DNA of 64,000 nucleotides from Flavobacterium saliperosum (lineage in GTDB: Bacteria; Bacteroidota; Bacteroidia; Flavobacteriales; Flavobacteriaceae), in contig NZ_FMTY01000002.1 in NCBI RefSeq assembly GCF_900100625.1, positions 1 to 64,000 of the forward strand. Reading direction: 5' to 3'. Each line of letters opens with the position of its first letter. Position 1 is the stretch's first letter. This document shows positions 4,259 to 38,949 of the stretch, one piece after another. A program made the translations under genes and the position numbers. The notes under the pieces are model-generated. The model saw only the letters and a list, made by a program, of their open reading frames with translations. It did not search any database and had not been told where the DNA came from.

Positions 4259-5272
4259 TCAGTTATTCTTTTCTGCTGCTAAAATAGCAATAAATTGTTT
4301 TACTGTTTCATCCAATGGCAAACTAGATTTTCCTCCGGCAGCATTTATATGTCCGCCTCCGCTGAAATGGTTTCTCGCGAACTGATTCACATCAAATGCC
4401 CCTTGCGAACGGAACGATATTTTGATGATGCCTTCCTCTTTGTTTTCGATGAAAATGGCCGTAAAGTCAAATCCTTTTAGCGACAAACCATAATTTACGA
4501 TGCCTTCCGTATCGCCTTTCACATAACCGAACTGGTCCAGTTCCGCCTGACTCAACGTTATATATGATGTTTTGTATTCAGGTAACAGCTTCATGTTTTG
4601 CAGCGCACGGCCCAAAAGTTGCAAACGGTTATAGGAACTCGTATCGAAAAGTAGGTTGTGTATTTTTGGATTTTCCACTCCTTTGTCCAATAAATCGGCA
4701 ACCACACGATGCGTGGTGCTGGTTGTAAGCGGAAAACGGAACGAACCCGAATCGGTTACAATTCCCGTATAAATACAAGTTGCCACCGTTTTGTTTATCA
4801 GATTTTCTCCACCCAACTGATGGATGAAATGATACACCATTTCGCATGTAGAACCAAATCCGGTATCGGAAAACGTATATTTTGCATAATTGTCCGGTAA
4901 CTGATGGTGGTCAATCATTATAAAAGTCGTGTCCAGCTTTTCCAAAGTGGCTGCCATAAAATCGCCCACGCGGTGCAGTGCATTGAAATCCAAAGTAAAA
5001 ACAATATCGGCCTGTTTTAATTTTTCGGTACTGTTCTGGATGTCTTTTTCAAATATCATCGTCTTTTCGGCATCAGGTAACCACGCCAGAAAATCAGGAA
5101 ATTCGTTAGGAGAAATTACCGTCACTTCGTGGTTTTGTTGCTTTAGAAAGTGATATAAACCCAGCGTAGAACCCATGGCATCACCATCGGGATTTCGGTG
5201 CGGAATAATTGCTATTTTCTTAGGGGAAGCTAAAAGTTGTTTAATTGCTTCAATATCATTGGCTGTCATCAT
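4259..5272 (-). CDS. nrnA: DHH-family phosphoesterase, NrnA-like oligoribonuclease / pAp phosphatase
   Basis: 337 residues. The DHH domain has PHRNPDGDAMGS (about 24-35), an aspartate in TLDFNALHRVGD (about 94-104) and the DHH triplet itself at 121-123; the DHHA1 domain ends with the GGGHINAAGG nucleotide-binding loop near 308-317. The family degrades nanoRNAs and dephosphorylates 3'-phosphoadenosine 5'-phosphate in the cytosol using Mn2+. It leads the gldI-isomerase series and is divergent from guaA. The start is one of two adjacent ATG codons (5272 or 5269). The -7 box lies only four bases upstream, which would give a leaderless mRNA. Confidence 0.87.
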   Translation of the reverse strand: MMTANDIEAIKQLLASPKKIAIIPHRNPDGDAMGSTLGLYHFLKQQNHEVTVISPNEFPDFLAWLPDAEKTMIFEKDIQNSTEKLKQADIVFTLDFNALHRVGDFMAATLEKLDTTFIMIDHHQLPDNYAKYTFSDTGFGSTCEMVYHFIHQLGGENLINKTVATCIYTGIVTDSGSFRFPLTTSTTHRVVADLLDKGVENPKIHNLLFDTSSYNRLQLLGRALQNMKLLPEYKTSYITLSQAELDQFGYVKGDTEGIVNYGLSLKGFDFTAIFIENKEEGIIKISFRSQGAFDVNQFARNHFSGGGHINAAGGKSSLPLDETVKQFIAILAAEKNN

Positions 5273-5276
5273 GATG

Positions 5277-5284
5277 CGAAAATA
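5277..5284 (-). promoter_or_regulatory. -7 box of nrnA directly before its start codon
   Basis: On the minus strand this reads TATTTTCG, one base from TAnnTTTG, and ends four bases before the ATG at 5272. Transcription from it would begin at or beside the start codon. Confidence 0.5.
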
Positions 5285-5353
5285 CGTTTTTTGAATAAAA
5301 AATTAGTTAAATAAATCTTTGAATTTTTAATTTTTCATTTTCACAGAAATGTC

Positions 5354-5361
5354 TATTTTTG
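5354..5361 (+). promoter_or_regulatory. -7 box of guaA directly before its start codon
   Basis: TATTTTTG is a perfect TAnnTTTG match and ends three bases before the ATG at 5365. The in-frame TTG at 5359 lies inside this box, so it is unlikely to be the translation start. Confidence 0.6.
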
Positions 5362-5364
5362 CAC

Positions 5365-6894
5365 ATGCAACACAACGTACTTATTTTAGATTTCGGATCG
5401 CAATACACACAACTTATTGCACGCCGCGTTCGCGAATTAAATATATTCTGCGAAATTTTTCCTTACAATCATTTTCCGGATGATTTATCAAGTTATAAAG
5501 CTGTAATTTTAGGAGGAAGTCCTTTTTCCGTTCGTGGAGAAGATGTGCCACATCCTGATTTATCGCAAATCAGAGGTAAAATGCCTTTGCTTGCGGTTTG
5601 TTACGGAGCGCAATATCTGGCCCATTTCAGCGGAGGTGAAGTAGCTGCTTCCAATACCAGAGAATACGGTAGAGCAAATTTATCTTATATTAAGGAAGAC
5701 GAAGTTTTCTTTGATGGCGTTGTTCAAAACAGTCAGGTTTGGATGAGCCACAGTGATAGTATTAAAGCATTGCCTACTAACGGAATTAAGTTAGCGAGTA
5801 CAAATGATGTAGAATATGCTGCCTATAAAATCGAAGGTGAAACTACTTACGCTATTCAGTACCATCCGGAAGTATTCCATTCCACTGATGGGAAACAAAT
5901 GTTGGAAAACTTCCTGGTAAAAATTGCTGAAGTGCCTCAAAACTTTACTCCGGGTGCATTCGTTGAAGAAATTGTAGCCGAAATGCAGGAAAAAATCCAA
6001 GGCGATAAAGTAGTTTTGGGACTTTCCGGAGGTGTGGATTCAACAGTAGCGGCAGTTTTATTGAATAAAGCTATTGGCAGTCAATTATATTGTATCTTCG
6101 TGAATAACGGTTTGTTACGTAAGAATGAATTCGAAAACGTATTGAACCAATACAAAGGAATGGGCTTAAATGTGAAAGGAGTAGACGCTTCGGAACGATT
6201 TTTGTCTGAATTAGCCGGAGTGGATGATCCGGAAACAAAACGAAAGATTATCGGCCGTGTGTTCATTGAAGTTTTTGACAACGAAGCACACCACATCGAA
6301 GATGTTAAATGGTTGGCACAAGGAACAATTTATCCGGACGTAATCGAATCGGTTTCGGTAAAAGGACCTTCGGCAACCATTAAATCACATCACAATGTAG
6401 GTGGTTTGCCGGATTTTATGAAACTGAAAATTGCAGAACCTTTACGTATGTTGTTCAAAGACGAAGTACGTAGAGTAGGAGCGACTTTAGGAATCGATCC
6501 GGAATTGTTAGGAAGACATCCGTTCCCGGGACCGGGTTTGTCCATTCGTATTTTAGGCGACATTACGCCGGAGAAAGTAAGAATTCTTCAGGAAGTGGAT
6601 GCTGTTTTTATCAACGGATTGAAAGAACACGGATTGTACGACAAGGTTTGGCAGGCAGGAGCAATCCTGTTGCCGGTAAACAGTGTTGGGGTTATGGGCG
6701 ATGAGCGTACCTATGAAAAAGTGGTGGCATTACGCGCTGTAGAATCTACGGACGGAATGACTGCGGACTGGGTACATTTACCGTATGACTTCTTAATGAA
6801 AATTTCAAATGAAATCATCAATAAAGTGAAAGGTGTGAACCGAGTGGTGTATGATATCAGCTCGAAACCGCCCGCCACAATTGAGTGGGAATAA
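5365..6894 (+). CDS. guaA: GMP synthase (glutamine-hydrolysing)
   Basis: 509 residues from ATG 5365 ([13 protein letters not shown]), the start usual for this family; an in-frame TTG six bases upstream is rejected. The class I glutamine amidotransferase domain has its catalytic Cys at 79 (AVCYGAQ) and His/Glu at 167/169 (YHPEV). The ATP pyrophosphatase domain has the P-loop SGGVDS at 221-226, and the C-terminal dimerisation domain ends with KPPATIEWE. The enzyme converts XMP to GMP with ATP and glutamine, the last step of guanine nucleotide synthesis. It is divergent from nrnA and ends in a hairpin terminator that also contains the promoter of the next gene. Confidence 0.97.
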
Positions 6895-6916
6895 AATAAT
6901 TAAGAAAATTATGAAT

Positions 6917-6957
6917 AAGTCGTTACAATCTATAACTTTGTAACGACTTGTTCGTTT
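6917..6957 (+). terminator. guaA terminator with embedded promoter for the LysM gene
   Basis: Arms 6917-6928 (AAGTCGTTACAA) and 6938-6949 (TTGTAACGACTT) make a 12-bp stem, followed by GTTCGTTTT. A -7 box TAACTTTG (6933-6940) lies in the loop and right arm, so the same bases could end guaA transcription and start the next transcript. Confidence 0.75.
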
Positions 6958-6970
6958 TAAAAAATACCAT

Positions 6971-8899
6971 ATGAAGCAATTTTTTATTGGATTGTGTACC
7001 ACTTTATTAGTTTCTGTTTCTGCTTTTTCGCAGACGAAAGAACATAAAGTTGCAAAAGGAGAAACTACGTATTCGATAGCCAAAAAGTACAATGTGGCTC
7101 CGGAAGATATTTATCGTTTAAATCCTGAAGCCAAAAACGGCGTCAATGAAAATGCGATACTTTTGATTCCGACGAAAGCGGGTCAGGCTGTTAAAACAGT
7201 TGTAAAAGACACTCCAAAACCAACCGGTAAGGAAACGCGTGTGTATCATGTGGTGGAAGCCAAAGAGACAGTATACAGTATTGCAAAAAAATACGACACT
7301 TCAGAGGAGTCAATTAAGAAAAATAATCCGGATATCGAAAAAGAAGGATTGAAATTAGGACAGACGATTGTGGTTTTCACCACAAAAAAAGTTGACAAAC
7401 CTGCTATTGTGGCTAAATCAGTTGCTGCTTCTACTCAGAAATACCATTTGGTGGAGCCTAAAGAAACCAAATTCGGTATCGCAAAAAAATACGGATTAAC
7501 AGTTGAAGAACTTGAAACATTAAATCCGGAAATCAAAGAAAATCTTGAAATCGGACAAAATTTACGTTTGAATAAAAATACGCCTGTTGCTGCTAAAACG
7601 GCGCCGGTTCAGTCAAAAGCGGTGGTGCAGTACATGGATTATACGGTTCAGCCTAAAGAGACATTGTACAGTTTGACAAAAGCGTCAGGATTATCTCAGG
7701 AGCAATTGTTGGCGGTGAATCCGGAATTGGCTAATGGTGTCAAAATCGGAATGACCATCAAAGTACCGTCAAATGCCAAATTCAATCAGATTAATCCGAA
7801 TAAAGAGCAAGCCGATATCATCAAAACGATGAATAAAGGCGAAGGAAAAGAACTGGTATTGCTGTTGCCTTTCCATATCGATAAGATTGAAGCCGATTCG
7901 GTAAATTCGGTTACGGAACGTTTGAAAAAAGACAAATTTTTAAACATGACGTTGGATTTCTATGCCGGTGCATTAATCGCAATTGATTCGGCTAAAACGT
8001 TAGGATTGCCGTTAACCGTGAAAATTCTGGATTCGGAAGAGTCTAAAAATTCTTCTGCGGTAGCGTCTTTAATTTCGTCGAACGATTTCTCTAAAACAGA
8101 TGCCGTTATTGGTCCGTTTTTCCAAAATCATGTTGAAACAGCTGCCTCTTTATTGGAAAAATACAATACTCCGGTTATTTCGCCATTGTCAAACGAAAGA
8201 GGAAAACCGTATTCCAATTTGTTTCAGGCCATGCCAAACGCATTGGATGTGAAACGCAAAATGTTTGATTTTATGATGGAACGAAACGGGAATATCATTG
8301 CCATTATCGATCCGAAAAAAGGGAGCATGAAGCAGTACATAACAGAAAATTACCCGTCGGTTAAAATTGCTGAAATCAATGACAAAGGCGTTCCTACATT
8401 GGAAAATGTAAAAAGTCTGATGGATAAGGACAAAACCAACTATGTTATTCTGGAATCCGAAAAAACAGGGATGGTGTTAAGTACGTGTAATATTTTGGTA
8501 TCCGCATCATCCGAATATCAGGTGCAAATGGTAACCTTGGAGAAAAATGAAACGTTGGATTTTGAAGAAATTCCGCTAAGTAAATTAACCAAACTGAAAC
8601 TATTGTACCCTTCAGTATCAAGGGATAATGAAACCACTCAGGCAGCTATTTTTGCGAAAGTTTTCAAAAAGAAAAACAATATTTTCCCGAACCGTTTCGC
8701 GACCCGCGGATTTGATGTGACGTTTGATGTAATCCTGAGATTGTTCCAGGACGGCGGTTACAAAGAATCGGTAAACAAAAAAGCATCGGAACAAATCGAG
8801 AGTAAATTTAACTACGTAAACCTTGACGGTGGATACTACAACAGAGGGGTTTATCTGTTATACTACGACGAAGATTTAACGTTAAAAGAAGCGAAATAA
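6971..8899 (+). CDS. Exported LysM-repeat protein with periplasmic-binding-like C-terminal domain
   Basis: 642 residues with a signal peptide (ending ...SAFSQ, about residue 21). Four LysM repeats follow at about 23-68, 90-136, 157-200 and 221-266, each with a core like YSIAKKY and a later NPE/NPD. LysM repeats bind peptidoglycan glycan chains. Residues about 290-640 resemble a type I periplasmic binding protein (ELVLLLPFHID, DAVIGPFFQNHV, NTPVISPLSNERG), the fold of amino-acid binding proteins and of LpoA. A cell-wall-associated sensor or scaffold is plausible but unproven. Its TAA overlaps the ATG of the OsmC gene by one base, so the genes are translationally coupled. Confidence 0.85.
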   Translation: MKQFFIGLCTTLLVSVSAFSQTKEHKVAKGETTYSIAKKYNVAPEDIYRLNPEAKNGVNENAILLIPTKAGQAVKTVVKDTPKPTGKETRVYHVVEAKETVYSIAKKYDTSEESIKKNNPDIEKEGLKLGQTIVVFTTKKVDKPAIVAKSVAASTQKYHLVEPKETKFGIAKKYGLTVEELETLNPEIKENLEIGQNLRLNKNTPVAAKTAPVQSKAVVQYMDYTVQPKETLYSLTKASGLSQEQLLAVNPELANGVKIGMTIKVPSNAKFNQINPNKEQADIIKTMNKGEGKELVLLLPFHIDKIEADSVNSVTERLKKDKFLNMTLDFYAGALIAIDSAKTLGLPLTVKILDSEESKNSSAVASLISSNDFSKTDAVIGPFFQNHVETAASLLEKYNTPVISPLSNERGKPYSNLFQAMPNALDVKRKMFDFMMERNGNIIAIIDPKKGSMKQYITENYPSVKIAEINDKGVPTLENVKSLMDKDKTNYVILESEKTGMVLSTCNILVSASSEYQVQMVTLEKNETLDFEEIPLSKLTKLKLLYPSVSRDNETTQAAIFAKVFKKKNNIFPNRFATRGFDVTFDVILRLFQDGGYKESVNKKASEQIESKFNYVNLDGGYYNRGVYLLYYDEDLTLKEAK

Positions 8900-31942: not shown

Positions 31943-31978
31943 AAAAATCAGACTTATTAAAGTCTGATTTTTGGTTTT
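31943..31978 (-). terminator. Terminator of the thioredoxin-ApbE-DUF4266-DUF3570 operon
   Basis: AAAAATCAGACTT (31943-31955) and AAGTCTGATTTTT (31960-31972) form a perfect 13-bp stem with an ATTA loop and T-runs, directly behind the DUF3570 stop. Confidence 0.88.
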
Positions 31979-31993
31979 TTTGATAGGGAGTAC

Positions 31994-33205
31994 TTATTTA
32001 AATTTCATAGCCAACGTAATGATGTGCGAATCGAGTCCGTTGTTTCGGGTGTAAAAACCGTAACGAAGTTCCAGACTGTTGATACGTTTTACATGGAAGA
32101 TGCCTTTATCTGCATCGGTAATCTTATATCCCAATCCGATCATGTTACTGCTGAATTTCGACAGGTCATAATCGCTGGTGTAAAATTCTTCCGCCAATCC
32201 GTGTAAAAATATCGGTTTGAAATAATCGGCCGCACTTTGCGTATAGAATCGGTACGGAATGGACAGCGATGAAAACGCCGATAACTTAATACTCGGTTCA
32301 ATACTGATGGTGTGTGAATTGATTCCCCAGTTGTCCCAATAATAGCGATAGAAGGTTCTTAAAACAACATGGTCGCCTAAGAAATAATTCGCCCGTGCTC
32401 CAAAAGGAAGTTTAAATCGGGTATCGGGTAACTTCTCCGATTTTACATTCGTTAAATCACCAAAATACACGCGGTTGAATTTCGTTGCCAATAAGCCCTG
32501 CTGATAACCGATATCGGTTAGGAACGCCACCTGAAAGTTCTTGTTCACCACCTGTGATAATGTTAACCCTAAATTATAGGACGTTCGGGGTTTCATGTCG
32601 CCTTGTTGGGCTTCATCATCCGAGGGATTGTTCCTCAGTTCGACGGGCAGAATTACCTTCCAGGTATCAAAAAAGGCCATTCCTTTTACTGAAAATTCCC
32701 GGTTTTTATCTTTGGAGATTTTCGTGAAACCCACATTGGCGCCAATGGAAGTGTAATCATACTCGGCAGAGAAGGAAAGTCCTCCGTTTAAGATATAGTT
32801 TTTCTCCAGGTTCTCATAGCTGTAATTCGCCGACGGATACACTCTCACATCCTGATACGATGCGGAAGTCACCGTATTGGGATCGATTTTATCCGATGAA
32901 GCCGAAGTATAGGTGTCAATTCCGAGTTCAAATCCGAAATTATGCTTGTTATTGTTCTTATCTCTTTTGGAAACTTTTATGTCGAATGTGGTGGCGACGT
33001 CGGTTAACTTTTCAGTTCCCACACCACCGGTTACGGCCGAATTGTTTCCATCCTGTTTGTAATAACTCGAAATAAAATTGACTTCCTCGATTTTTAATTT
33101 TTGTTTTTTGTAGGCTGAGCTGTCGGTGGTTTGCGTGTCCTGCGCTCTCATATTGTTACCGAATATAAAGGCCAATACGGATGCGGCGAAGATTCTCTTT
33201 TTCAT
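31994..33205 (-). CDS. DUF3570 predicted outer-membrane beta-barrel
   Basis: 403 residues with a signal peptide (ending near NNMRAQ). The start of the mature part has the conserved-looking YYKQDGNNSAVTGGVGTE, followed by long amphipathic beta strands of alternating hydrophobic residues and Tyr/Asn-rich turns, ending HIITLAMKFK. This fits an outer-membrane barrel of roughly 14-18 strands. The function of DUF3570 is unknown. It is the last gene of a tight operon with thioredoxin, ApbE and DUF4266 genes, which points to a redox- or metal-linked envelope role. The SAVTGGVGT segment loosely resembles ApbE target sites, but this is weak. Confidence 0.85.
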   Translation of the reverse strand: MKKRIFAASVLAFIFGNNMRAQDTQTTDSSAYKKQKLKIEEVNFISSYYKQDGNNSAVTGGVGTEKLTDVATTFDIKVSKRDKNNNKHNFGFELGIDTYTSASSDKIDPNTVTSASYQDVRVYPSANYSYENLEKNYILNGGLSFSAEYDYTSIGANVGFTKISKDKNREFSVKGMAFFDTWKVILPVELRNNPSDDEAQQGDMKPRTSYNLGLTLSQVVNKNFQVAFLTDIGYQQGLLATKFNRVYFGDLTNVKSEKLPDTRFKLPFGARANYFLGDHVVLRTFYRYYWDNWGINSHTISIEPSIKLSAFSSLSIPYRFYTQSAADYFKPIFLHGLAEEFYTSDYDLSKFSSNMIGLGYKITDADKGIFHVKRINSLELRYGFYTRNNGLDSHIITLAMKFK

Positions 33206-33225
33206 CTTTTCCTTTTTTGAATGGA

Positions 33226-33432
33226 TTAATTGCAGCCGCAGCCGCCACCGGTTTTTCCTCCGTTAGCACCGGAACTTGCTTCACGGTACAACTGAAATGT
33301 GTTTTCGAATTTCTCCGATTTTCGGGCAGCCAATTCCATGTCCGAATCGTTAATTTTTGATTTCTGATATTCTTTTACCGGTGAGCACCCGACACTCAGG
33401 CCAAGCAGCAGACAAAAAGCTATTATTTTCAT
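33226..33432 (-). CDS. DUF4266 small lipoprotein with C-terminal GGGCGCN
   Basis: 68 residues. A lipoprotein signal ends at LSVGC (Cys16). The short helical middle (MELAARKSEKFENTFQLYREAS) leads to a Gly-rich tail whose last residues are GGGCGCN, with Cys65 and Cys67 spaced C-G-C. The tail looks like a metal- or thiol-binding or modified tail. It lies 20 bases from both neighbours in the ApbE-DUF3570 operon. Family function is unknown; the small size and fixed C-terminus suggest a ligand carrier or a substrate of its neighbours. Confidence 0.85.
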   Translation of the reverse strand: MKIIAFCLLLGLSVGCSPVKEYQKSKINDSDMELAARKSEKFENTFQLYREASSGANGGKTGGGCGCN

Positions 33433-33452
33433 AAGCTATCGTAGTTACGTTT

Positions 33453-34373
33453 TTAAGTCAGTTTAATGTTATCTGAAAAATATTTCCGGTCGTAATCGTC
33501 GATGATGATGCAACCGATATGTTTTAGTTGATTGATGAAATCCAGTCCGACTTCAATGCCCATAACGGTTACCGGAGTTGCCAGCGCATCGGCTATTTCC
33601 GCATTTTCAGCGATAATGGTCACGCTTTTTATACCGCTTACGGGAAAACCGGTTTTCGGATCAATCGTGTGGGAGTATTTCTTATTGTCTATCATTACGA
33701 ACTTCTCATAATTACCCGAAGTAGCTACAGAAGTATTGGTGATTTGAAATGTTGAGAATGTTGAGGTTCTTAAATTCGGATCGGCAACCCCGATGGTCCA
33801 CGGTTCGCCGTTTTCCTGATGTCCCCAGGTGGTTAAATCTCCGGCAGCGTTTACGATTCCGTTTTCGACGCCGTTTTCAAGTAACTTCTTTTTAGCCATT
33901 TCTGCGGCATAGCCTTTTCCGATTCCGCCAAAACCGATGCGCATTCCTTTCTTTTTCAGGAAAACCGTTTTTTCAGCCTCATTTAAAATGATATTTTCAT
34001 AATTGATGAGTTCCACCGATTTTTTGGCCGCTTCTGCATCCGGTAACGCGGTCATTTTCAAATCGAAATTCCAGAATTTCTTGTCGATTCCGCCGTAACT
34101 GATATCAAATGCACCTTGTGTCATTTTTGACAACATCTGGCAGCGCTGAATCAGACTGAAGACTTCCTCCGGAACTTTAACCGGTTGAATTCCCGCATTT
34201 TCATTGATTTCAAAAGTGATGCTTTCGTTGGAAAAGGTGGTCAGCAAACGTTCGATTCGCTGAATTTCTTCAATTGCCAAATTAATTTTTTCGGAACACC
34301 AATTTTCATCAGGTCCGACAACAGAAATCTCAAAACGATTTCCCATTAATTTTTCAACTCTTTTGTGAAGCAT
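33453..34373 (-). CDS. apbE: FAD:protein FMN transferase (ApbE family), no signal peptide
   Basis: 306 residues. Family motifs are RLLTTFSNES, FGGIGKGYAAE, VNAAGDLTTWG and SHTIDPKTGFPV (FAD and Mg2+ binding). ApbE moves FMN from FAD onto a Thr or Ser of target proteins. Most bacterial ApbE proteins are exported lipoproteins; this one starts MLHKRVEKLMGNRF, right at the domain edge, so it seems cytosolic unless an upstream start exists within the thioredoxin gene. Its ATG overlaps the thioredoxin stop (TAATG). No FMN-binding-domain protein is nearby, so its target is unclear. Confidence 0.9.
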   Translation of the reverse strand: MLHKRVEKLMGNRFEISVVGPDENWCSEKINLAIEEIQRIERLLTTFSNESITFEINENAGIQPVKVPEEVFSLIQRCQMLSKMTQGAFDISYGGIDKKFWNFDLKMTALPDAEAAKKSVELINYENIILNEAEKTVFLKKKGMRIGFGGIGKGYAAEMAKKKLLENGVENGIVNAAGDLTTWGHQENGEPWTIGVADPNLRTSTFSTFQITNTSVATSGNYEKFVMIDNKKYSHTIDPKTGFPVSGIKSVTIIAENAEIADALATPVTVMGIEVGLDFINQLKHIGCIIIDDYDRKYFSDNIKLT

Positions 34374-34804
34374 TATCCTTTCAGTTTGGTAATGAAATCT
34401 TCTAAAGTTTCAGACGGATAGTGTTCCCATTTTTTTACGATTTCACCCTTACCGTTTAATAAGAGTATCAGAGGGAACAACCCGTTATTGTTGTACTTAT
34501 CGGCCAGTCTTTCGTTTTCCTGAGTGATATTGTCGGCCAGTTTATTCTTTTTAAGTCTCGGAAAATCCGCATTGAAAACAATCAGGTTTTCGGCGCTGAA
34601 GGTTTTAAACTGGTCGGTTTCCACGAAATGTTTTTTGAACTTCACGCATGGGGCACACCAATCGGAACCGGAAAAAAACAGCAATACGTTTTTGTTTTCG
34701 GTTTTGGCTTTTTCAAGAGATTGCTCGAATGTCAATCGGGTTGCTTCCTGAGCAGTAATTGTCAAGGAGAACAATAGAAGCAGGGATACAATTTTAAGCT
34801 TCAT
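34373..34804 (-). CDS. Exported thioredoxin-like protein
   Basis: 143 residues with a signal peptide (ending ...TITAQ). The thioredoxin fold has the active site WCAPC (Cys50, Cys53) and a helix rich in Lys after it. The cis-proline region reads FPLILL. It resembles the DsbD-gamma/SoxW-like group that reduces or oxidises periplasmic thiols. It leads the operon with apbE, DUF4266 and DUF3570, overlapping apbE by one base. Its likely clients are thiols or metal-bound cysteines in that system, such as the CGC tail of DUF4266 (inference). Confidence 0.88.
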   Translation of the reverse strand: MKLKIVSLLLLFSLTITAQEATRLTFEQSLEKAKTENKNVLLFFSGSDWCAPCVKFKKHFVETDQFKTFSAENLIVFNADFPRLKKNKLADNITQENERLADKYNNNGLFPLILLLNGKGEIVKKWEHYPSETLEDFITKLKG

Positions 34805-35663: not shown

Positions 35664-36491
35664 TTATTGAATGGTGTAATCAACCGTATCCACTTGTGAA
35701 AGATTAAAATAACCCAAGGCAAAATTATTCTCATCGGCCTGATTGACAACGTTTCCTCGTACGGTTGCCGGTGGGGACTGGAACGGACTTCCGCCATTAC
35801 TTCCCGCTACAGCAAGCAAAACGTTCATGTAATTGTAATACTGTCGGGAAATACCGTAAAGTTTGATGCTTATCAAATCTCCTGCTTTTAAATCTTCATT
35901 AGAATATAAGCCAAACATCTGATTCCCTTGAAAAAATCGGTCTTCCAATACATCATAATCAGGAAAAGGTTTGTCGTTCGGTTTGAAACCAATCATGTAA
36001 AAATTGTCTTCAGCACCATTGTCCTGATAGAAAAACTTGATTTCGATTTCGTCACCGGTAAATCCACCTTCGTTATTCTGTTCAATAAGATCTTCAATAT
36101 CCGGAACTTCAGTTAGTGTTTCTGTTGCGGTAAAAGTCTGACCATTGTAAACTACCGTTAAGGTATATGTTTCTCCAATAACCGGTTGAAAATTAGTACA
36201 CAAGTACTCTCCGGTGTTGCCTGTTTCAAGAAAATCAAAAATCACGTTAGTGCTGTTGGTTATAAAAACAGTTGCACCTGAAACTACAGGGACGCTAGTG
36301 TTATAATAAGGCGCAGTAGTGGTGAGTTTGATTTTTTGTTCGCTGCCCGAAGTGCCTTTAATCCATTGAATAGAAGCGTCTACCACAAGTTTTGGCGGTG
36401 CCGTATCCAAATCGACTTCGACTACTTTCTCGCAACTTAATGCAAAAGAAGCGATGATTATCAGGCTGATATAGTGAAATGCTTTTTTCAT
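35664..36491 (-). CDS. DUF4249 lipoprotein
   Basis: 275 residues with a lipoprotein signal ending at FALSC. It is beta-rich with two Ig-like parts: a first one with VVDASIQ and GATVFITNST, a second with EIEIKFFYQD. DUF4249 proteins are almost always paired with TonB receptors, as here: its start is four bases behind the receptor stop. They are thought to sit at the outer membrane and assist the receptor. The ligand is unknown. Confidence 0.88.
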   Translation of the reverse strand: MKKAFHYISLIIIASFALSCEKVVEVDLDTAPPKLVVDASIQWIKGTSGSEQKIKLTTTAPYYNTSVPVVSGATVFITNSTNVIFDFLETGNTGEYLCTNFQPVIGETYTLTVVYNGQTFTATETLTEVPDIEDLIEQNNEGGFTGDEIEIKFFYQDNGAEDNFYMIGFKPNDKPFPDYDVLEDRFFQGNQMFGLYSNEDLKAGDLISIKLYGISRQYYNYMNVLLAVAGSNGGSPFQSPPATVRGNVVNQADENNFALGYFNLSQVDTVDYTIQ

Positions 36492-36495
36492 CGTA

Positions 36496-38874
36496 TTAGA
36501 ATTTAAAGTTATACGTTACACTCGGAACGATTCCGAAAATAGACAAACGTACCGCTTCATTGTTTCCGGTGTCCGAATTTTGTCGGAAAGAAATTGAGGC
36601 GGAGTTCATTCGGTTGTACAGATTATATACACTGAAAACCCATTCTCCTTGCCATTTTCTGCCTTTGTTTTTTCTTGGCGTTAAGGTTGCGGACACATCC
36701 AAATGGTGGTAAGTGGGAAGATTGCTTTCGTTTCGACCTCCGTAATTCGGAATTTGTATGCCCTGATATACATAATAGCTGTCCGGGAAAGTTACGGGTT
36801 GCCCGGTTTGTAAGGTGAATATCGAACCGAATGTCCATTTTTCATTTAATTTATAAGAACCGGTTACCGATACATTATGGGTTTTGTCATAACCGGATTT
36901 ATACCAATTTCCGTTATTGATGCCGTATTCATCCGATGTTCTTCCGGGTGTTTGTTGTTCGGCTCTGGAAAGGGTGTAAGAAATCCAGCCGCTCAGGTTA
37001 CCGGTGTTTTTGCGTAGTAGTACTTCCAGTCCGTAAGCTCTGGAACGACCGTTTAAAACGACCTGTTCGATAGCGTTATTGGCGATTAAATCGGCACCGT
37101 CAATATAATCGATTCGGTTTTTCACTTTCTTATAAAACGTTTCAACTTCTAATGAATAGTTGTCATTGCTGAAATTTTTGAAATACCCTACGGCAACCTG
37201 ATCCAGCAATTGCGGTTTGATGAATTTGTCACTGGGGGTCCAAACATCCAAAGGAGTAGGGGAAGCCGTATTGGAAATCAGGTGCAGGTATTGCGCCATA
37301 CGGTTGTAACTCGCTTTTATCGATTGGTTGTCATCCAAAGTATACGCAACTGCCAAACGCGGTTCGAGATTGTTGAAGCTGGCCATCGTTTCGTTTTTAC
37401 CGAATTTTTCGGTTCCGGTAGGTGTGGCTTTTTCGTAAATTTTCAGATCATTGTTCCAAACTACAGCTTCATTGTTGGCATACGTGTTGATTTCCTGACT
37501 TCCCAATCGGTAAAACATGCTGTAACGCAAACCGTAATTCACGGAAAATTTATCGGGAAGTTGCTGTTCCGCTTCAATATAAAAGGAAGGTTCGAACGCA
37601 TATTTTTTATCCAGCTGATCCGGATTGATGCCTGATTCGGAATTGGTCGGTTCGATGGTACCCGGATTGAAATCGTAATACACGGTGTTCATTCCGTAAG
37701 CCAATTTGAATTTATCCGACAAATAATGTTTCAAATCATATTTAAAATTATAATTCTTGATGCCGCTGTCCCAATTGAATCCGACAAAATCCAGCGTCAA
37801 TCCATAATAGTAATCACTGTAAATAAAGGACATGTTTGAGAATAACTTGTCTGAAAACAAATGGTTCCATCGCAGGTTTAAAACGGAATTGCCATAGGTG
37901 TTTTTAAAACTTTCGTTGAGGCTAAAAACGTCCCGACCAAAATATCCGGACAGAAAGAGGTTGTTGTTTTCATTGAATTTGTAACTCAGCTTGGTGTTCA
38001 GATCATAAAAATAGGCCGAGTTCTCGTTGTCGGTAAGCTTGAGGAATAAATGCGCATACGAACTTCTTCCCGCGACAAGAAACGATCCTTTGTTTTTTAC
38101 GATAGGGCCTTCCGCTAACAAGCGGCTGGAAATTAAACCGATACCACCATTGATGTGAAAATCGTTACTGTTACCTTCTTTCTGATAAATGTCCAAAACA
38201 GAAGCCACACGTCCGCCAAAACGCGCCGGGATACCGCCCTTGTATAATTTCAAATCCTTAATCGCATCCGAATTGAAAACGGAAAAGAATCCGAAAAGGT
38301 GAGAAGAATTGTAAATGGTCGCTTCGTCCAGTAAAATCAGATTCTGATCGGCAGCACCGCCACGAACGTTAAACCCAGATTGGCCTTCTCCGGCATTGGT
38401 GACTCCGGGAAGCTGAAGAATTGATTTCAGCACATCGGTTTCCCCTAAAATTACGGGCATTTTTTTAATCTCGGCAATTGTAAGTTTGTTAACGCTCATT
38501 TCCGGTTTTCGGATGTCGACTTTCTTTCGGTTTTCAACAATGAGGACTTCTTCGAGCTGTTGCACGTTTTCGCTCAATGCGATATTCTTTTTCGTGTTTT
38601 GAAGCAGGCTGATTTTTTCTTCCGAACCGGTATAACTCACATAATTATATTGAACGGTGTAGTCTCCTTTTGGCAGTGAAATCGAATAGAAACCGTACTC
38701 ATTGGTATTGGTACCGGTTTTGAGTTCCTTGATGTAAATGGTTACTCCGATTAGGGTTTCGTTGGTTTTTGAATCCGAAACGATGCCACTCAGCGTGAAT
38801 TTTTCCTGGGCATACGAAGCGAAACAGCAAATGAAAAGGATAAGGAATGAAATTGATTTTTTCCTAAGTATCAT
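36496..38874 (-). CDS. TonB-dependent receptor with N-terminal carboxypeptidase-like domain
   Basis: 792 residues from ATG 38874 (MILRKKSISF), which gives a proper signal peptide (ending FASYAQ); the open frame continues 18 codons upstream but without signal-like character. A carboxypeptidase-regulatory beta sandwich (about 25-105) precedes the plug (about 120-230, with GEGQSGFNVRGGAADQNLILLD split over conserved turns) and a 22-strand barrel. It should import a ligand across the outer membrane using TonB energy. It shares an operon with DUF4249 and thiamine pyrophosphokinase. No TPP riboswitch is visible upstream. Ligand unknown. Confidence 0.92.
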   Translation of the reverse strand: MILRKKSISFLILFICCFASYAQEKFTLSGIVSDSKTNETLIGVTIYIKELKTGTNTNEYGFYSISLPKGDYTVQYNYVSYTGSEEKISLLQNTKKNIALSENVQQLEEVLIVENRKKVDIRKPEMSVNKLTIAEIKKMPVILGETDVLKSILQLPGVTNAGEGQSGFNVRGGAADQNLILLDEATIYNSSHLFGFFSVFNSDAIKDLKLYKGGIPARFGGRVASVLDIYQKEGNSNDFHINGGIGLISSRLLAEGPIVKNKGSFLVAGRSSYAHLFLKLTDNENSAYFYDLNTKLSYKFNENNNLFLSGYFGRDVFSLNESFKNTYGNSVLNLRWNHLFSDKLFSNMSFIYSDYYYGLTLDFVGFNWDSGIKNYNFKYDLKHYLSDKFKLAYGMNTVYYDFNPGTIEPTNSESGINPDQLDKKYAFEPSFYIEAEQQLPDKFSVNYGLRYSMFYRLGSQEINTYANNEAVVWNNDLKIYEKATPTGTEKFGKNETMASFNNLEPRLAVAYTLDDNQSIKASYNRMAQYLHLISNTASPTPLDVWTPSDKFIKPQLLDQVAVGYFKNFSNDNYSLEVETFYKKVKNRIDYIDGADLIANNAIEQVVLNGRSRAYGLEVLLRKNTGNLSGWISYTLSRAEQQTPGRTSDEYGINNGNWYKSGYDKTHNVSVTGSYKLNEKWTFGSIFTLQTGQPVTFPDSYYVYQGIQIPNYGGRNESNLPTYHHLDVSATLTPRKNKGRKWQGEWVFSVYNLYNRMNSASISFRQNSDTGNNEAVRLSIFGIVPSVTYNFKF

Positions 38875-38949
38875 GGTGTTACATTTTGTCAGATTGGCTG
38901 TAAATTTCGCTTTTTTGTAGCGAAACAACTGTTAAGGACAGGTTAATAA

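Follow-up and report, generated by a model that had tools for sequence, protein, structure and literature searches.

The present analysis concerns a compact four-gene operon on the minus strand of a 64-kb stretch of DNA from Flavobacterium saliperosum (contig NZ_FMTY01000002.1, positions 1 to 64,000; hereafter the window), which encodes, in this order, an exported thioredoxin, an ApbE flavin mononucleotide (FMN) transferase, a DUF4266 lipoprotein and a DUF3570 protein (Table 1). The operon is a member of the already described DsbD/DUF3570 type of ApbE flavinylation system. What it adds to the published passages on that system (PMC8238504) is an ApbE without a signal peptide, acceptor sites of the [T/S]SAS type, and a modelled β-barrel in which the acceptor serines flank a loop. 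We consider it somewhat more probable than not that these proteins form a relay from DsbD through the thioredoxin, DUF4266 and FMN to the cell surface, with FMN loaded onto DUF3570 before export.

According to this explanation, DsbD, whose gene lies elsewhere in the genome, would pass cytosolic electrons to the exported thioredoxin. The next carriers would be the C-terminal Cys-Gly-Cys (CGC) of the DUF4266 lipoprotein and, after it, one FMN each at Ser103 and Ser116 of DUF3570. The position of these two flavins on an outward loop would allow them to reduce a surface acceptor, with ferric iron or some other small oxidant as the most likely candidate. The ApbE of this clade, devoid of a signal peptide, would flavinylate DUF3570 while its precursor is still unfolded in the cytosol; the Sec system would then export the modified chain, which would fold into the outer membrane. 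We infer the order and direction of electron flow, the acceptor and the place of flavinylation from the evidence presented below.

Relationship to a described flavinylation system

Méheust et al. 2021 (eLife; PMC8238504) reported clusters of ApbE, DUF3570, a thioredoxin-like protein (PF13899) and DUF4266 with DsbD, as well as 316 clusters that contain the same four families without DsbD; clusters qualified only if one or more of the target genes encoded a signal peptide. In that work two [S/T]GA[S/T] motifs are given as a trait of the DUF3570 family, and the DUF3570 protein of Chlorobium luteolum, cloned in the same way as a signal-peptide-truncated DUF2271 protein, was flavinylated at two serines upon coexpression with its ApbE; it was found mostly in the Escherichia coli pellet, yet flavinylated, and the modification was lost only if both serines were changed. 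The authors proposed that this hybrid of thioredoxin and flavinylation components obtains electrons from DsbD and that the CXC of DUF4266 may redox-cycle, and they found VIT1 adjoining 25 clusters. The window operon agrees with this system in the clustering of the four families (positions 1-265 of the 266 in the ApbE profile are matched), in a DUF4266 with a C-terminal CXC (here CGC at residues 65-67) and in a DUF3570 that carries two ApbE-type sites. It differs in that DsbD is not in the cluster (its presence is typical and not required, given the 316 clusters without it), in that both DUF3570 sites read TSAS, with the serines kept and Ser replacing Gly, and hence fall outside the [S/T]GA[S/T] pattern, and in that ApbE has no signal peptide, whereas its export is assumed for extracytosolic systems.

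An ApbE without a signal peptide in the DUF3570 set is not discussed in the passages of PMC8238504 that deal with it, and in its main text the word "barrel" is absent and "outer membrane" is used only once, for TonB receptors. Flavinylation sites have been stated in general terms, DUF3570 not being shown, to vary between the cytosolic membrane, the periplasm and the outer membrane (PMC11334425, in part). Among titles in the literature, mostly other than subscription papers and preprints, we found none that dealt with a flavinylated barrel or with an ApbE that lacks a signal peptide and has an exported target.

With the gene set and the flavinylation of DUF3570 already in PMC8238504, the idea of an undescribed system, put forward in the original prediction made from the window alone, had to be abandoned. 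That prediction also saw no standard FMN-binding-domain target encoded nearby and held DUF3570 to be without assigned function; because the C. luteolum protein was shown to be flavinylated, DUF3570 is the target that had been missed, and the second statement is out of date. Its more general proposal of an envelope redox system survives as regards thiols on the cysteine lipoprotein and flavin on another member (published for a relative, and probably at the outer membrane), while for the metal site that it also considered we saw no evidence, no dedicated search for such a site having been run.

Judging from profile searches of the F. saliperosum genome (2.89 Mb, 25 contigs, 99.99% complete), DUF3570 appears to be the only candidate substrate among the target families tested. 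The operon copy is the one ApbE in the genome; FMN_bind, DUF2271, NQR2/RnfD and Flavodoxin_4 gave no match, and the single FMN_red protein (180 aa) lacks, by eye, a signal peptide, a C-terminal extension and an [S/T]GA[S/T] motif, so that these other targets were rejected. An ApbE without a signal peptide is the sole ApbE, with FMN_bind absent, in eight genomes of our set (G000, G012, G017, G033, G010, G052, G063 and G106).

The families also occur together far beyond this genome. A single draw of 296 genomes from the phylum contained DUF4266 in 83 and DUF3570 in 86, and the former were all included in the latter (an overlap of 83 versus about 24 expected under independence), with only three genomes containing DUF3570 without DUF4266; within this phylum, the co-occurrence on which the original prediction depended is therefore borne out. 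For closer inspection we used 53 loci sampled at the level of class and phylum, taken from 49 of the 83 DUF4266 genomes, and 80 named loci, the best 80 of at least 574 confirmed, which were ranked by likeness to the window DUF3570 and thus represent one clade. An ApbE gene accompanies DUF3570 in 81 of 81 cases among the named loci and the window and in 48 of the 53 class/phylum stretches (about 2 kb apart in L052), and in 76 of the 81 the gene immediately before ApbE encodes the thioredoxin.

Neither Ser103 nor Ser116 varies among 16 diverse DUF3570 sequences or among 68 closer ones. Among the named loci and the window (n = 80 of 81), site 1 reads DxxTSAS in 62 and DxxSSAS in 18, and site 2 reads SSAS in 66, TSAS in 10 and SGAS in four, while relatives from Flavobacterium and its family that have an exported ApbE show SSGAS at site 2. 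The sequence left out of these counts, from a Spirosoma metagenome bin (L165), has an in-frame stop at DUF3570 site 1, near position 6290. Three loci with an exported ApbE (L054, L055 and L059) have ASAS at site 1 and, at site 2, a Pro that replaces the motif Ala or lies close to it (STPSS, SSPSS). In L057 the DUF3570 frame (5178-6552) has one detected TSAS site, and the thioredoxin (6675-7128) is encoded at the opposite end of the operon. Published mutagenesis of the motif D-x-x-[S/T]-G-A-[S/T] indicates that the change of Gly to Ala leaves about 50% flavinylation and that loss of the Asp has minor effects (PMC12052999, in part).

The window and most of its clade have lost the motif Gly at both sites, which would also fit an ApbE that modifies some other, cytosolic protein, the TSAS type of DUF3570 being no longer flavinylated and its barrel acting as a porin or binding something else. 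We regard this as unlikely, even though the ApbEs without a signal peptide treated in PMC12052999 modify fumarate reductases. The cytosolic ApbE of Klebsiella pneumoniae described there resembles the window protein in having no signal peptide; its substrate is a soluble fumarate reductase, whereas the only candidate found here is an exported outer-membrane barrel. A cytosolic substrate finds no representative among the tested target families in the genome, it leaves the invariance of the acceptor serines and the persistence of Gly at site 2 in 4 of 80 sequences without a reason, and it sits poorly with the association of ApbE and DUF3570 in nearly all loci.

ApbE without a signal peptide

The reading frame of the window ApbE is closed 12 codons upstream of its ATG, and the protein has no hydrophobic stretch near its start that could serve as a signal peptide. 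This feature, which sets the operon apart, went unmentioned in the original prediction. It retains the motifs TSG at 218, HTIDP at 235 and ADALAT at 261, which align with the FAD:protein FMN transferase structure 7esa and probably represent the Ser-His-Asp triad known to be catalytic in ApbE (PMC12052999, in part). Signal peptides were scored by a hydrophobicity rule of our own rather than by SignalP (an 11-residue stretch following an ATG, GTG or TTG no more than 70 residues upstream of the domain had to average 2.0 or more on the Kyte-Doolittle scale), which flags nearly all thioredoxin, DUF4266 and DUF3570 proteins in the same loci. For the named loci and the window it reports a signal peptide in 0 of 79 ApbEs, compared with 56 of 57 thioredoxins, 79 of 81 DUF4266 and 77 of 81 DUF3570 proteins; the ApbEs of L100 and L139 (cut by a contig end or broken) and 22 of 79 thioredoxins that were not anchored were dropped from the scoring, and three of the 79 ApbEs have values of 1.4-2.0, below the cut-off. 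A signal peptide hidden by a mis-called start was rejected, as none appeared with any of the ATG, GTG and TTG starts tried up to 70 residues upstream. As a control, 14 of 17 other ApbEs from genomes that contain the type without a signal peptide do have one, and the three that do not come from a single genus code (g27) and start like the operon type. These three (L175, L176 and L177) are encoded in addition to the operon copy.

On a quick tree of ApbE (61 rows) the signal-peptide label requires three changes, against a mean of 15 in 500 shuffles, none of which was as low. The main group without a signal peptide comprises 34 of the 61 rows and occupies one side of a branch with an SH-aLRT value of 99; one row, L066, was labelled as lacking a signal peptide although the thioredoxin fused to it carries one. 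A second such group, of eight rows, corresponds to family f17 of the phylum; its DUF3570 sequences, together with a neighboring DsbD in L073, lead us to regard its members as relatives of Chlorobium. Several f17 genomes (G197, G264 and others) have up to 9 DUF3570 matches, some of which are two segments of one gene.

The fusion in L066 (3560-4930) is a single 457-aa protein in which a start resembling a signal peptide is followed by Thioredoxin_7 and then by a complete ApbE; its gene is located upstream of DUF4266 and DUF3570. This fusion illustrates a second alternative, in which the relay is the same and ApbE is periplasmic without a signal peptide of its own, for instance because it is fused to the exported thioredoxin encoded just upstream or travels with it. 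The position of the thioredoxin gene directly before ApbE in most loci and the export of ApbE in related lineages are in keeping with such transport; we nonetheless find it quite unlikely for the clade of the window. The ApbE of L057 has no signal peptide either, although the thioredoxin gene there is at the opposite end of the operon, and in L052, which also has an ApbE of this type, a search of the retrieved stretch for sequences resembling the window thioredoxin gave none. A frameshift or readthrough fusion of the two genes was rejected, since their relative reading frames are not conserved (57/35/13 over 105 loci of both types).

Loading of FMN in the cytosol, before export, fits the missing signal peptide of ApbE together with the published coexpression of the C. 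luteolum proteins (PMC8238504). Because proOmpA labelled with fluorescein-maleimide crosses SecYEG (PMC11131593, in part), passage of an FMN-bearing chain through the Sec channel would be mechanically possible.

The predicted DUF3570 barrel and the dithiol of DUF4266

The window DUF3570 is predicted to be an even-stranded, closed outer-membrane barrel with a signal peptide. The AlphaFold2 model (68 rows; pLDDT 87.7, pTM 0.83) has 16 strands as counted from the DSSP line. Values of pLDDT below 50 are confined to the first 11 residues and to residues 83-95 (mature numbering, i.e. residue number minus 21), the latter being the sole such inner segment, located between strands 3 and 4 and bracketed by the acceptor serines, 82 and 95 in this numbering. 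The serines would thus flank one flexible loop at the end of the modelled barrel opposite the termini. A second model, of DUF4266 and DUF3570 from L089 as a single chain (pLDDT 77.7, pTM 0.76), again displays the strands and a floppy segment (159-172) at the same place; loop 1 is also poor in this model. Outer-membrane barrels keep their N-terminus in the periplasm, so the strand count suggests an outward orientation for the loop that joins strands 3 and 4. With the barrel ends drawn by hand from the DSSP line, 49 of the 177 positions assigned to the loop end are near-invariant, against 7 of the 91 assigned to the turn end (Fisher p = 1.1e-4 for this comparison); the region between them has 15 of 98. 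In ordinary porins the outer loops are the most variable part, whereas conservation here crowds at the loop end, which is therefore probably the working site.

Structure comparisons matched the model to outer-membrane barrels: 296 residues align with a BamA model (Z 20.5, rmsd 6.1) and 253 with CymA (Z 18.0, rmsd 4.3), and OmpG is among the top Foldseek rows. The similarity is limited to the common barrel fold, and the sequences are 8-12% identical to DUF3570. To our knowledge, none of CymA, OmpG and BamA has flavin sites. A sequence search up to E = 1 identified no solved DUF3570 structure.

The thioredoxin has a signal-peptide-like start and a match to NCBIfam DsbH of 84.5 bits, below the 190-bit cut-off, and likely takes electrons from DsbD; the genome encodes one protein with a DsbD_TM domain (PF02683), at C14:386917, more than 350 kb from the operon. 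DUF4266 has the lipobox LSVGC and ends with GGGCGCN, which leaves a mature part of 53 residues from Cys16 to the C-terminal Asn. This length is the same in 103 of 124 copies measured (55-60 in the rest), and a CGC is found in the tail of 130 of 130 copies tallied. A flexible arm of nearly fixed length, from lipid anchor to dithiol, would be well suited to a shuttle. Docking of this Gly-rich tail in the barrel was rejected, as the L089 single-chain model contains no ordered tail.

The universal CGC tail, together with the metal transporter VIT1 next to a few operons (see below), could instead be read as the mark of a thiol- or metal-handling system, such as one for metal or thiol repair at the outer membrane, with flavin secondary; as the window DUF3570 contains no cysteine and flavinylation of a DUF3570 has been demonstrated experimentally (PMC8238504), we consider this very improbable.

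Several observations weigh against a relay with flavin loaded in the cytosol. Both sites of the window DUF3570 depart from [S/T]GA[S/T], and site 2 also lacks the upstream Asp. In the class/phylum loci, 17 of 46 ApbEs have a signal peptide, i.e. the same genes are accompanied by an exported ApbE elsewhere; three of the 17 control ApbEs have none; and the fusion in L066 places ApbE in the periplasm there, so that cytosolic ApbE is not a strict rule. DsbD is not beside the operon, and an ordered CGC tail was not seen in the L089 model (pLDDT below 50 for residues 38-61). Finally, growth of an apbE knockout without thiamine was not restored by cytosolic ApbE (PMC12052999, in part).

Operon layout, genomic neighborhood and implications

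The coordinates (Table 1) and Pfam matches confirm the compact arrangement noticed in the original prediction: one base is common to the thioredoxin stop and the ApbE start, and the ApbE-DUF4266 and DUF4266-DUF3570 gaps are 20 bases each. For the strong terminator that it described, the analysis found a terminator-like hairpin between DUF3570 and the following gene; of five terminator-like sites (3.1 expected from shuffles, sd 1.7) this one has the longest stem.

Table 1. Features of the thioredoxin-ApbE-DUF4266-DUF3570 operon (window coordinates)
Feature	Position	Strand	Details
Exported thioredoxin-like protein (Thioredoxin_7, PF13899)	34373..34804	-	143 aa; Pfam 2.8e-12, 47 bits
WCAPC motif of thioredoxin	34646-34660	-	residues 49-53
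ApbE FMN transferase without signal peptide	33453..34373	-	306 aa; Pfam ApbE (PF02424) 1.9e-77, 260.8 bits
DUF4266 lipoprotein (PF14086)	33226..33432	-	68 aa; Pfam 4.3e-19, 69.6 bits
Cys-Gly-Cys of DUF4266, proposed thiol relay	33232..33240	-	codons 65-67
DUF3570 (PF12094), predicted outer-membrane β-barrel, expected carrier of two covalent FMN	31994..33205	-	403 aa; Pfam 5.5e-38, 131.3 bits
Predicted FMN site 1 of DUF3570, T-S-A-S, acceptor Ser103	32897..32908	-	residues 100-103
Predicted FMN site 2 of DUF3570, T-S-A-S, acceptor Ser116	32858..32869	-	residues 113-116
Intrinsic-terminator-like hairpin 3' of DUF3570	31943..31972	-	13 pairs, T-rich tail

The operon is flanked, according to Pfam, by a thiamin pyrophosphokinase upstream and a DUF389 membrane protein downstream. 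Also upstream (35664-38928) a DUF4249 protein adjoins a TonB-receptor-like protein with plug and carboxypeptidase-regulatory domains. The closest named relative among the scan matches is Flavobacterium cauense R2A-7, with a DUF3570 95% identical to that of the window. A single stretch, L081 (2968-10310), contains repeated copies of DUF4266 (two) and DUF3570 (three).

Analysis of the proteins flanking the operon in 35 of the 80 named loci (140 picked, 14 left out by hand) revealed no conserved functional neighbor, as no family has more than 5 members among the 126 proteins. Rieske proteins (4), cytochrome b561 (4) and VIT1 (2) are present, and members of these families lie beside the operon in several Bacteroidota (L102:3825-4262, L116:3952-4377 and 7266-7895, L119:3671-4297, L154:3862-4281, L136:7223-7915). 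They possibly represent another entry of electrons or a link to iron, and the VIT1 genes beside some clusters hint at iron as the acceptor. In Riemerella anatipestifer an apbE gene (RAYM_04506) is induced under iron restriction with RAYM_04481-04501, which include a TonB receptor (PMC5609570, Table 3, in part); with such a receptor among the co-induced genes this is probably a different ApbE cluster, and the link was not used.

A more specific version of the proposed relay can be offered only tentatively. It would be a haem-free flavin outlet with cofactors attached in the cytosol, FMN on an outward loop and a 53-residue dithiol arm; the exported ApbE of sister lineages would load the same substrate, so that the site of modification would have been switched. 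By analogy, with no homology claimed, electrons would cross the outer membrane at a barrel as in haem conduits of the MtrCAB type, but with flavin in place of haem, with the barrel itself carrying the cofactors and with no cytochrome in the operon.

Attachment of FMN before export, if it occurs, would be a large exception to the picture of exported ApbE targets being modified outside the cytosol: no export of FAD would be needed, and the Sec channel would naturally transport a polypeptide that already carries its cofactor. Outward-facing FMN sites, if confirmed, would give these Bacteroidota a surface outlet for electrons that needs no haem. Both questions can be addressed on a single operon, in F. 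saliperosum, whose genome has a single ApbE and a single candidate target.

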